A stretch of DNA of 41,580 bases from Tissierellia bacterium (GTDB lineage: Bacteria > Bacillota > Clostridia > Tissierellales > Peptoniphilaceae). The notes below the pieces were generated by a model. The model ran no database searches. It was not told where the DNA came from and saw only the letters and a list, made by a program, of their open reading frames with translations. The translations under genes and the position numbers were made by a program. Below are positions 6,141 through 10,510 of this stretch, one piece after another (position 1 is the stretch's first letter; every line of letters starts with the position of its first letter). Where the stretch lies: contig JAAYNG010000054.1 of assembly GCA_012520935.1 (NCBI GenBank), positions 1-41,580 of the forward strand, written 5' to 3'.

Positions 6141-8120
6141 TTGATTAAAAAGAGTTTGAGCAGGAGATTAAATCTGTTGGTTGTTTTGATTTTATTCTTC
6201 TCAATTGTTATTATTACGATATTGAGTTCTTATTTTAGTTATAGGGCTGCTTATAATATTTATGAGGACTATATCGTGAACATCAGTAAGTCTCAGGAAA
6301 ACAGGCTTGTTGAATTTTTTGCCAAATATGAGCTGGGTGTTAATCAGCTTGCTGAAATGACTGCCATGAAGGGTTTTGATGACCCGGTTGGCAATGAAAA
6401 CCAGAGGGCGGCTTTGGCTTCTATTGAGAATTATTTAAATGCCTACGGGGGTGTTGAGTTGGTTTATTTTGGTAGTGCTAAGCAGGGCAAGGCTATCTTT
6501 TCGCCTCCCTTGGATGTGGATATCGACCCTACTGACAGGCCTTGGTATATTGATGCTGTTAATGAGGGGAAGGTCATCTGGACTGACCCTTATATTGATG
6601 CTATCTCCGGTGGTGTAACTATTACTACTGCGGCCCCTGTTATGAACGGGTCGTCTTTAACTGGTGTTGTGGGTGCTGATATCTCTCTTAATGGCTTGGG
6701 GGATATGGTGTCTATGGTCCATATTGGTAATGATGGTGGGGCTATGGTTGTTGATCCTGTTTCTAAGTCAATTCTTTTTACTAAGATTGAGGGTTTGACC
6801 GGCCAGGAAATCCCTCTAGAGGCCCAGGGGATTTTTGAAAATGAAAATACTGTCTACAGGATGAAGCTTGGTGGACAGGAGTATATTCTTGTTTATAATA
6901 AGTTGGAGAATACTAACCTGGGAACTTTGATTTACCTTCCATTCAAGGAAATTATTGCTGCAGGTATGGGTATTTTTATTACTAGTTTAATTATTATGCT
7001 GGTGACTTTTGTTGTTGCTACTATTATTACCAGGTTTGCCCTTAGGGGAACTGTGAAAGATATTCAGGATGTTTCTGCTGCTATGGAGCATGCCGGAAGT
7101 GGGAACTTTACTGATAGGCTTACCACTCGTCGTGAGGACGAGGTTGGTGCTATGTATGATGCTTTCAACGACATGGTTATTAATGTTTCTAAGTTGGTGG
7201 GGTCGGCTAAGGAGGTTTCCCATAAGGTTTCTAACCTTTCTGACCACTTGGCGGCGATTTCAGAGGAGACTACTGCGACAAGCCATGATGTTACCAGGAC
7301 CGTTGAGGAGATTGCCCACGGGGCGACTTCTCAGGCTATGGAAATTGAGTCCGGTGTTCAGGCTATGAATAATATTGCTGAAAGAATTAAGGAAAATACG
7401 GACTTGGTTTCAAATATACAAAATTCGGCTCATTCTGTTGTGGATAGCAAGGACGAGGGACTGGATATTTTAAAGAATTTGATTGCTAAGAACCGAGAGA
7501 GTAATCAGGCAGCTTCTTTTATGGCTGATATGATTACTAATACGGATGCTGCGGCTAAGAAGATTTCCCAGGCTTCTGAGATGATTGGGGACATTGCTGA
7601 GCAGACTAACCTTTTGGCTCTGAATGCTTCTATTGAGGCGGCAAGGGCCGGGGATGCCGGTCGTGGTTTTGCGGTTGTTGCTCAGGAGATAACTAAGCTT
7701 GCTGATTCTTCTTCGACCTTCTCTGAGGAGATTAAGAGGGTTGTTGATGACTTGACCAAGAGGACTAATGAGGCTGTTTCTACCATGGATAATGTTGCTT
7801 TGATCGCTGATGATCAAGCGAAGTACCTTGGGGAAACGGAAACTGCTTATCAAAATATTTCTGATTCAGTTGATTCAACAAGGAGGGAGGTACAGGCCTT
7901 GTTTGATGCTGCGGATAGTTTGGAGAGGGACAAGGAGGCTATGGTCCGAGTTATGGAGAACTTGTCTGCTGTTTCTCAGGAGACTGCGGCTTCGACGGAA
8001 GAGGTTTCGGCTGCCATGGCTGAGCAAGTGAAGGCGATTGATACGGTGGCAGAGAATGCGACCGAGCTTGCTGTTTTGATTAATGAGTTGCAGGAGAATT
8101 TGAATAAGTTTATTTGTTAG
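6141..8120 (+). CDS. Methyl-accepting chemotaxis protein with extracellular dCache domain
   Basis: This 659-residue transmembrane chemoreceptor starts with TTG preceded by AAAGGGGGC. TM1 spans about residues 11-32. An extracellular dCache_1 sensor covers about 35-265, TM2 about 273-300 and HAMP about 301-352. The cytoplasmic coiled coil has its CheA/CheW-contacting tip at about 483-515 ([20 protein letters not shown]). The sensor contains DRPWYIDAV, then DPYIDA and GVVGADIS. This R-x-W-Y...Y...D pattern resembles the amino-acid-binding motif described for dCache receptors, so an amino-acid ligand is a reasonable inference. There is no CheR-tethering pentapeptide at the C-terminus. No che or flagellar gene lies in the window, so its kinase must be encoded elsewhere. 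It points against the replication direction, has its own promoter, and ends at an intrinsic terminator. Confidence 0.93.
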
Positions 8121-8167: not shown

Positions 8168-8196
8168 AGGGCGGCTTGGGTGGCCGTCCTTTTTTT
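8168..8196 (+). terminator. Intrinsic terminator of the chemoreceptor gene
   Basis: Stem AGGGCGGC (8168-8175) pairs with GCCGTCCT (8183-8190) with one G-U pair, followed by a run of seven T. It lies 48 bases after the chemoreceptor stop codon. Confidence 0.85.
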
Positions 8197-8236: not shown

Positions 8237-8303
8237 GAGCCATCCCCCCTCGTCATCGCGAGCGTTAGCGTGGCGATCCAGGGGTTTCCCATTAGCTGGG
8301 GGA
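8237..8303 (+). repeat. Dispersed repeat copy B, left direct repeat flanking hicAB
   Basis: These 67 bases match 9106-9172 with three mismatches, in direct orientation. They contain CTCGTCATCGCGAGCGTTAG, GTGGCGATCCAG and GGGTTTCCCATTAGCTGGGG. Only the left half of the palindromic element seen in copy C is present. The HicA promoter begins 45 bases downstream. Confidence 0.85.
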
Positions 8304-8348
8304 GTTAAACAGATGGGACTAAATGCTAAAAACATTATTATGTTAATA

Positions 8349-8377
8349 TTGACTTTATACTTACTTTTGTGTATAAT
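8349..8377 (+). promoter_or_regulatory. Consensus promoter of the hicAB module
   Basis: TTGACT (8349-8354), exactly 17 bases, then TATAAT (8372-8377). The predicted start near 8384 leaves only about 16 bases of leader, containing the GGGAGG site. HicB proteins commonly autorepress such promoters by binding over them. I do not see an obvious operator palindrome here. Confidence 0.82.
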
Positions 8378-8399
8378 ATTATTGTAGGGAGGAATGGGG

Positions 8400-8591
8400 A
8401 TGCCGATGACTTCTAAGGAAATGATTAAACTCTTGGAAAAAAATGGTTTTGTTCACATAAAAAGTGGGGATGGCTCTCATAGGAAATTTAAGAATTTTGA
8501 AACTGGTAGAGTAACTCAGGTTCCTTATCATAATAGGGACCTGTGTAAAAAGACTGAACATATGATATTGAAACAAGCTGGGCTTAAATAG
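8400..8591 (+). CDS. hicA: HicA-family mRNA interferase toxin
   Basis: This small basic protein (63 residues from the chosen start) has the HicA/YcfA dsRBD-like fold pattern: PMTSKEMIKLLEKNGFVHIK, then SGDGSHRKF with the conserved catalytic histidine in GSH, then VTQVPYHNRDL and a C-terminal helix. HicA toxins cleave mRNA and are neutralised by HicB, which is encoded 34 bases downstream. An in-frame ATG at 8394 lies only one base after GGGAGG (8387-8392), too close to be used well. The ATG at 8400 has a seven-base spacer, so I prefer it. The key residues look intact. The module lies between direct repeats, consistent with acquisition as a unit. Confidence 0.88.
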   Translation: MPMTSKEMIKLLEKNGFVHIKSGDGSHRKFKNFETGRVTQVPYHNRDLCKKTEHMILKQAGLK

Positions 8592-8625
8592 CCTATCTTT
8601 AATATGTAAATGAAGGAGGAATTTT

Positions 8626-9045
8626 ATGTTTGTTGTTTATCCTGCAATCTTCTATAAAGACTTAGCTAGCAATGCTTATGTTGTCATTTTCCCTGATCTT
8701 GATAATGGGGCTACGGAGGGGGAAGATATTAATGATGCTTATTTTATGGCTCAAGATTATATTGGAAGCTGGTTATATGATTATTTTATTGAAATGAAAG
8801 AACTCCCAAAGGCTTCTAATATTTTAGACTTGAAATTGGAAGATGATGAATATTCAGATTTATCAAAGAGTTTTATTAGTTTGGTTGGAATCGATCTAGC
8901 TGAATATGTCAAACAAGCTGATAAGAGGACTGTAAGAAAAAATATTTCTATTCCTAGCTATCTGAATGAAATGGGGATTACTAAAGGGGTTAATTTTTCA
9001 CAAATATTGCAAGATGCGTTAAAAGATGAATTTAATATTAATTAA
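8626..9045 (+). CDS. hicB: HicB-family antitoxin with C-terminal DNA-binding domain
   Basis: This 139-residue protein pairs with HicA. Residues 1-70 form the partial RNase-H-like HicB fold (FVVYPAIFYKD, VVIFPDLDNGATEGEDINDA, then an acidic helix). The C-terminal part (KRTVRKNISIPSYLNEMGIT, then NFSQILQDALKDEF) looks like a ribbon-helix-helix DNA-binding domain, used by many HicB proteins to repress their own operon. The start has an AAGGAGG site. It is co-transcribed with hicA from the promoter at 8349, toxin first, the usual order for hicAB. The reading frame is full-length, so the module is probably functional. Confidence 0.88.
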   Translation: MFVVYPAIFYKDLASNAYVVIFPDLDNGATEGEDINDAYFMAQDYIGSWLYDYFIEMKELPKASNILDLKLEDDEYSDLSKSFISLVGIDLAEYVKQADKRTVRKNISIPSYLNEMGITKGVNFSQILQDALKDEFNIN

Positions 9046-9105
9046 GGATGGTCTTTTGGGGAATGTCCTTATTTATATTATGATAGAAGCTTCTTTCATT
9101 ATCGC

Positions 9106-9225
9106 GAGCCATCACACCTCGTCATCGCGAGCGTTACCGTGGCGATCCAGGGGTTTCCCATTAGCTGGGGGATTAAGTTGGGGTCCGGCTTTGTGGGTCT
9201 GGATTGCCACGGTCGCTTCCTTAAG
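9106..9225 (+). repeat. Dispersed repeat copy C, complete palindromic element, right direct repeat of hicAB
   Basis: This is the most complete copy. Its left arm contains CCGTGGCGATCCAG (9137-9150) and its right arm CTGGATTGCCACGG (9199-9212), complementary except for one G-U pair. They are joined by about 48 bases including GGGTTTCCCATTAGCTGGGG. The transcript could fold into one long hairpin. The first 67 bases repeat copy B on the other side of hicAB. There is no open frame for a transposase inside, so it resembles a MITE- or REP-like non-autonomous element. Confidence 0.82.
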
Positions 9226-9241
9226 CTATTTTTAAAACAAG

Positions 9242-9283: not shown

Positions 9284-10510
9284 TTATTTTACTTTTACCG
9301 GGTGGTAATTGTTGCCTTGGCCGCTGAAGCCTAGGCCCAGCTGGCCTTCTGTGTTTTGTCCCCAGGACCAGAGGTTTCCGAAGCTATCAAAGGCATATCC
9401 TGTGTTCCTGCCTGCTCCTATATCTGTCATCCTTGCTGTCCCTGTCTTTACTAGGTAGAAATCTCCCAGTTTTGTTCCTCCTGCTGCAAAGCCAAGTCCC
9501 AGCTGGCCAAAGTTATTATTATCTCCTGAGCTGAAGACCAACCCGTCTTCTCTAAGGGCATAGATTACTCTGTTTTTAAAAATAACTTTGTTGAAGCCCC
9601 TGTCGCCCACATTTAAGCTTATCCTGCCGGCTGGTACAACTACTTGTGGTATGTCCCAAGCTACTATTTGATTCGGTGTGATGGCTATATTGCCTTCATC
9701 GCCAATTTCAAGTCTTTGGACACTTGAAACATCTGTTATTAACTGTGGTGTTCCTTGTCCAAATGGTGATATTTTACCCCACATATAGACTTCGCCATTG
9801 GTGGTTACTATGCCTATTTTATAGCCTCCTGCTGCTACTTGGATTGGAGTCGCTCCTGCAGGTAAGTGTGCCGGTTCTCCCCATTTGCCTGCGTTATTTC
9901 CTCCAACACTTCCTCTACCGTGTTGGCCATATTCATTGCTGCCCTTTACTCTTACTTGGCCACCGGAAGTTAGGATTGCATAGAAACCATCGCCTGCTGC
10001 TATGTTTATTACCCCGTCTACTTCTGTGTCTTGTTGGATATTGTAGCCATCTTCTGACAGCCATAGGTTGCCACCGGCATCCAGTGCTATGAATCCATTT
10101 AATGTTGAGGCTATTTGGATGAAGTTTCCCTCTTTTACAAGGGTTGGGGTCATGGATTTTCTTTGTCCTCCTGTCCCGCCCATCCAATATATTGCCCCGT
10201 CTTTAATAAATACTGTATGGTGGATATTGCCATCTATTTTTTGATTCCAGCTTGTATATTTAATCGGGTTTCTAACTATTGGTATTCTGTCCGGTGTGAC
10301 ATAGGTTGGGTCTACCTGTTCCGGCGGTGTTTCTCTTCCTTGACATGCTATCTCTAAATATACTGTGTCACCTGCCGGGTCAATGGCAGTTATTACTCCT
10401 ATGTCTTCTACATGGGTCATAGCATCATAGTATACTATATCACCAAGCTCTGCATTGGCAAATGGTTGGAGTGGTACTCCTTCATGAGTTCCACATGGAA
10501 CATTAAAATT
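9284..10510 (-). pseudogene. RCC1-repeat protein, 5'-truncated remnant
   Basis: The frame encodes RCC1 beta-propeller repeats: GNLWLSEDG, GEVYMWGKISPFGQG, GLVFSSGDNNNFGQLGLG and GNLWSWGQNTEGQLGLG. Each unit is about 50 residues. The first ATG (10420) has no ribosome-binding site. Protein-like sequence (VPCGTHEGVPLQPFANAELG, then DIVYYDA) continues in frame upstream of it to a TAA at 10511-10513 without any start codon. That stop lies only about a dozen bases after the upstream gene. The simplest reading is that the 5' end, probably with a signal peptide, was deleted and the remnant is not translated properly. RCC1-like repeats in bacteria are usually found in exported surface proteins. Alternatively, it is a 378-residue protein starting at 10420. 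A parS-like site lies inside the truncated 5' part. Confidence 0.7.
10487..10502. promoter_or_regulatory. parS-like site 1
   Basis: AGTTCCACATGGAACA matches the near-palindromic centromere site bound by chromosomal ParB (arms GTTCCAC/GTGGAAC), with one central deviation. ParB is encoded at 40445. The site overlaps the broken 5' end of the RCC1 remnant. Confidence 0.65.

Follow-up and report, generated by a model that had tools for sequence, protein, structure and literature searches.

A hicAB toxin-antitoxin operon flanked by two near-identical members of a dispersed REP/BIME-like repeat family

Does a hicAB operon that lies between near-identical direct repeats owe its place to recombination through them, or is it an ordinary operon that lies between two members of an abundant repeat family? 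The locus that raises this question is part of a 41,580-nucleotide stretch (the window; contig JAAYNG010000054.1 of assembly GCA_012520935.1, from a Tissierellia bacterium), where hicAB sits in the gap between two convergent genes along with two members of the family. A first-pass annotation had read it as a cassette inserted within, or movable through, a dispersed repeat without a transposase. The features of the locus are:

6141..8120, + strand: methyl-accepting chemotaxis protein (MCP), left neighbour, from domain search
8237..8303, + strand: left repeat copy, an apparently complete B-type unit made up of head, core CGTCATCGCGAGCGTTAGCGTGGCGATCCAG and tail; the DNA after it is non-repeat
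8349..8377, + strand: hicAB promoter, TTGACT (8349-8354), 17-nt spacer, TATAAT (8372-8377), read directly
8394..8591 (start 8394 or 8400), + strand: hicA, predicted toxin, 65 aa (HicA_toxin PF07927, E 4.6e-16)
8626..9045, + strand: hicB, predicted antitoxin, 139 aa (HicB_lk_antitox PF15919, E 2.4e-11)
9097..9225, + strand: paired element of head, B unit and inverted C unit, a strong hairpin with a decayed far end
9106..9172, + strand: right repeat copy, identical to the left copy at 64 of 67 positions
9284..10420, - strand: RCC1-repeat protein, right neighbour, from domain search

Our reading of the sequence confirmed the two 67-nt copies, their shared orientation and their three mismatches as annotated. 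They are 96% (95.5%) identical, start 869 bp apart, and resemble each other far above chance (E 4e-25 when the left copy is searched against the genome). Read directly, the 802-bp interval between them contains hicAB and its promoter and nothing else. The right copy runs on into a long hairpin (9095-9230, -55.7 kcal/mol in a computed fold), in agreement with the palindromic element that had been described there; the element is slightly decayed and not full, as had been claimed, since its far arm ends ...CACGGTCGCTTCCTTAAG where the family's usual ending is ...CTCGCAATGACG. On its inner side the right copy adjoins a family-typical head, TTATCGC, of only 7-8 nt. The left copy has no inverted partner unit, and a T run is absent from both copies. 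A 23-nt tail is common to the two and identical in no other unit. Upstream, the chemoreceptor gene is followed by a terminator-like hairpin with a T run at approximately 8168-8196.

The complete hicAB with its own promoter reported between the copies was borne out: the HicA and HicB domains lie in one operon, both above the Pfam cut-off, and a TTGACT-N17-TATAAT promoter is legible ahead of them. Judged by its sequence, the module appears to be a standard hicAB type II toxin-antitoxin operon, sharing with such systems the hicA-hicB order, the protein sizes, the HicA GSH motif, the C-terminal antitoxin segment and an own promoter with a palindrome, with no notable difference. The HicB C-terminal segment (IPSYLNE...NFSQILQDAL) is conserved in the alignment, and we take it, from family knowledge, to be of the ribbon-helix-helix type. 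A degenerate palindrome, TATAC-N10-GTATA, overlaps the promoter and resembles an operator when set against TACGTATTA(A)TACGTA, which occurs in the promoters of relatives.

The G+C content of hicA (35%) and hicB (31%) is below that of the neighbouring genes (43-45%). The closest HicB relatives found are ~53-60% identical and patchily distributed (Peptoniphilaceae, Peptostreptococcus at 60%, Gemella at 56%); more distant ones lie on plasmids, and the viral contigs gave one HicB match, at 40%. Horizontal acquisition of hicAB is likely because the operon is AT-rich relative to its neighbours and its HicB relatives are patchy and extend to plasmids and a viral contig. According to a review (PMC11594946), hicAB loci occur in prophages and on plasmids and are presumed to spread horizontally. 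For the RCC1-repeat gene on the right, a search of 100 related genomes at E <= 1e-10 gave no relative, nor did the GTDB 220 candidate stretches.

The description of the repeat as dispersed also held. With the left copy as query, the genome gave 20 matches at E <= 0.01; the core pattern matched 41 sites on both strands, versus 1 for a reversed control pattern, and 43 family units were located in the 2.04-Mb genome and used in the analyses below. These palindromic units stand singly or as inverted pairs and fall into several subtypes, including B units (CGTCATCGCGAGCG..GCGTGGCGATCCAG), C units (CGTCATTGCGAGG..GGCAATCCAGACCC) and a further subtype with longer terminal inverted repeats (TTCAAACTTCGCACAT...). 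Other B units share parts of the 67 bases (the head in L040, most of the tail, GGGTTTCTTATTAGCT, in L041); because head, core and tail recur in this way, the left copy has the look of a complete unit rather than a broken-off half.

The family, intergenic in the copies inspected, is a REP/BIME-like palindromic repeat: dispersed, mostly intergenic and present in many copies. With REP/BIME elements it has in common short palindromic intergenic units in dozens of copies, single or in inverted pairs, and several subtypes. It differs in that we found no Y1/RAYT transposase in the assembly (97% complete; no PF01797 match, in a search that detected the domain in E. coli and four other controls), and some of its subtypes, with their longer terminal inverted repeats, have a MITE-like look. 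Some insertion sequences target REP elements (PMC1525189). None of 129 other genomes from the same taxonomic family yielded a match to these units, the repeat was absent from the viral contigs searched, and the window has no match in Rfam. Literature searches with the core sequence returned string matches only, in papers that by title and abstract concern other subjects.

How unusual is the flanking pair in so repeat-rich a genome? Random placement of the 43 units in 2.04 Mb gave at least one same-strand pair within 869 bp with a probability of 0.34. One half of contig C46 was left out of this estimate because its matches are mirrored: on this 34274-bp contig they repeat end to end (1445- / 32796+, 9837- / 24423+), an apparent assembly palindrome. 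In similarity, the hicAB-flanking pair ranks 1 of 780 pairs, and the next best match to the left copy among B units is 82%. The flanking copies are thus more alike than random family members, a comparison proposed with the annotation, yet hardly above the best unlinked pairs: unlinked copies of another subfamily reach 94%. The same annotation had suggested looking for other genes bracketed by the repeat, and one exists: on contig C15, a housekeeping-type gene, alkaline phosphatase (named from its own sequence, without a family-library search), lies between a same-strand pair that is 89.6% alike and ranks 6 of 780. Both ranked close same-strand pairs are therefore among the six most similar, while a third same-strand pair, within 3 kb on contig C10, was left unranked. 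That two close pairs are so alike suggests that neighbouring repeats were duplicated or converted locally, with or without passage of hicAB, although a firm claim would need more than two such pairs; independent insertion alone does not explain why the hicAB pair is both closest-matched and near neighbours. The genome's second hicAB, on contig C19, has a family unit 3' of the module and none upstream. This second module (L058:1963-2613) reads as a single open frame of 216 aa, apparently a HicA-HicB fusion or a read-through.

Across Clostridia, direct repeats of at least 25 bp, located at most 400 bp away on each side, bracketed 12 of 92 hicAB loci, compared with 5 of 175 control gene blocks from the same loci. 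The difference persisted when both gaps had to be at least 60 bp (9/54 hicAB versus 3/106 controls, one-sided p 0.003), 100 bp (7/41 versus 3/68, p 0.03, one-sided) or 150 bp (7/24 versus 1/37, one-sided p 0.005). In a further sample, 8 of 66 hicA loci and none of 65 mscL loci were bracketed (p 0.003). Among the eight, L186 coincides with L094 from the first set, and L165 and L223 both lie in a single genome; mscL, being a core gene, is a control that cannot separate hicAB from mobile genes at large. The enrichment looks real, with the qualification that the loci are related and the thresholds were set after the first data.

The bracketing repeats themselves are terminators in L089, L094 and L132, other hairpins in L100, L130, L145 and L161, the 3' end of a tRNA-Thr in L096, an integrase-gene fragment in L107 (whose region L101 shares), and attC-like arrays in the genomes G492 and G475. 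With terminators, hairpins, a tRNA end, integrase remnants and attC-like arrays among them, no single bracketing mechanism follows. A general law of hicAB cassettes, considered because 24 bracketing pairs were counted where 6.8 were expected, was weakened by this mixture of unrelated kinds. We view as distinctly improbable the broader proposal that hicAB in Clostridia is recurrently captured between short, mostly hairpin-forming repeats and moved or lost by recombination that needs no dedicated recombinase, of which the window would be one instance with a lineage-special family.

The reading we favour, with a probability of roughly 0.6, is that an ordinary AT-rich hicAB lies between two members of a dispersed family whose likeness reflects a shared source or local duplication or conversion. 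The operon would have been acquired horizontally, and the single B unit on its left and the B unit with inverted C unit on its right would both belong to the genome's own family, flanking hicAB because the family is abundant in intergenic DNA. The close match of the copies would stem from recent spread of one source unit, or from local duplication or gene conversion. The repeats would be dispensable for hicAB function and have no role in mobility, although the right one may function as a 3'-terminal hairpin of the hicAB transcript. This reading is supported by the chance probability of 0.34, the bracketed alkaline phosphatase, the one-sided second hicAB and the 94% unlinked pairs; against it count the rank of 1 in 780, the exclusive 23-nt tail, the missing RAYT and the commoner bracketing of hicAB across Clostridia.

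The same observations bear on whether recombination placed the operon. A hicAB circle or donor fragment with one B unit could have undergone a RecA-dependent, reversible single crossover with a resident B+C element, giving B-hicAB-B+C. A single crossover would yield precisely the observed order, B ... B+C, the flanking pair is the best-matching of the family, and the interval holds hicAB and its promoter alone. The chance probability of such a pair is nonetheless about one in three, an ordinary gene has a comparable pair around it, the other hicAB is flanked by the repeat on just one side, and the left copy seems to be a complete family unit and not one side of an interrupted element. Efficient RecA recombination usually calls for homology longer than 67 bp, and since the family was not detected in the 129 same-family genomes, a repeat donor would need very close kinship. 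On balance, we regard this crossover as unlikely. Insertion of hicAB into a B unit with duplication of a 67-bp target is, in our estimate, very unlikely. Long-target-duplication insertion of restriction-modification genes in Helicobacter pylori was reportedly described by Nobusato et al. in 2000. The likeness lies in an addiction-type gene pair and long direct repeats with no transposase, and the near-identical direct copies, of a length untypical of transposons, fit tightly around the two-gene module. The repeat here is, however, a unit of a dispersed family; the ends of homology coincide with the apparent ends of that unit, and the family-like head TTATCGC on the inner side of the right copy, short at 7-8 nt, would if genuine not be a product of target duplication. 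The H. pylori precedent is cited in both PMC1643837 and PMC2654758.

A functional alternative would make the repeats insulator hairpins on both sides of hicAB that block read-through and so guard the toxin:antitoxin ratio. In several relatives the bracketing repeats are indeed terminators or hairpins (L089, L094, L132, L100 and L145), but at this locus the left copy stands without its inverted partner, neither copy has a T run, and the chemoreceptor gene already has a separate terminator-like hairpin at its 3' side, which leaves insulation with little credence. Integron gene cassettes offer a further comparison, in that they too can place a toxin-antitoxin operon with its own promoter between repeats. 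The repeats here do not, judged by eye, look like attC sites and form no array, and a search for integron integrase (TIGR02249) in this genome gave no match at E <= 1e-20.

If hicAB had truly moved through the repeat, toxin-antitoxin genes could spread without a transposase, and findings made on restriction-modification genes would hold for them as well. As matters stand, the locus serves as a caution: in a repeat-rich genome, near-identical bracketing copies do not by themselves demonstrate mobility. The two gene samples in which repeat-bracketed hicAB is enriched provide a lead testable with strain-level data.

Arrays with hicAB among their cassettes were observed in two other genomes, and by eye the family core is unlike their attC-like repeats. 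In the clostridial genome G492, 18 kb (L303; G492:C1:1746000-1764000) contain 21 repeats of ~120 bp (TAACGTTCCC...GTGTTA) with mostly single genes between them, an integron-like arrangement in which two cassettes are hicAB (L165 and L223). The best integron-integrase match of this genome lies away from the array and may not be IntI, since it skips model positions 181-235. A smaller attC-like array in G475 (L304; G475:C1:2113000-2130000) has 7 matches of a 150-bp repeat; hicAB occupies one of its intervals, and ORFs resembling tyrosine recombinases and transposases lie close by. Separately, the hicAB modules of L101, L103 and L107, at two places in one MAG and one in another, are 96-98% alike. 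L103 shares 723 bp with L101 and L107; the shared segment has sharp edges, ~70 bp ahead of hicA and ~30 bp past hicB, which may be read as a sign that a minimal unit moved recently.
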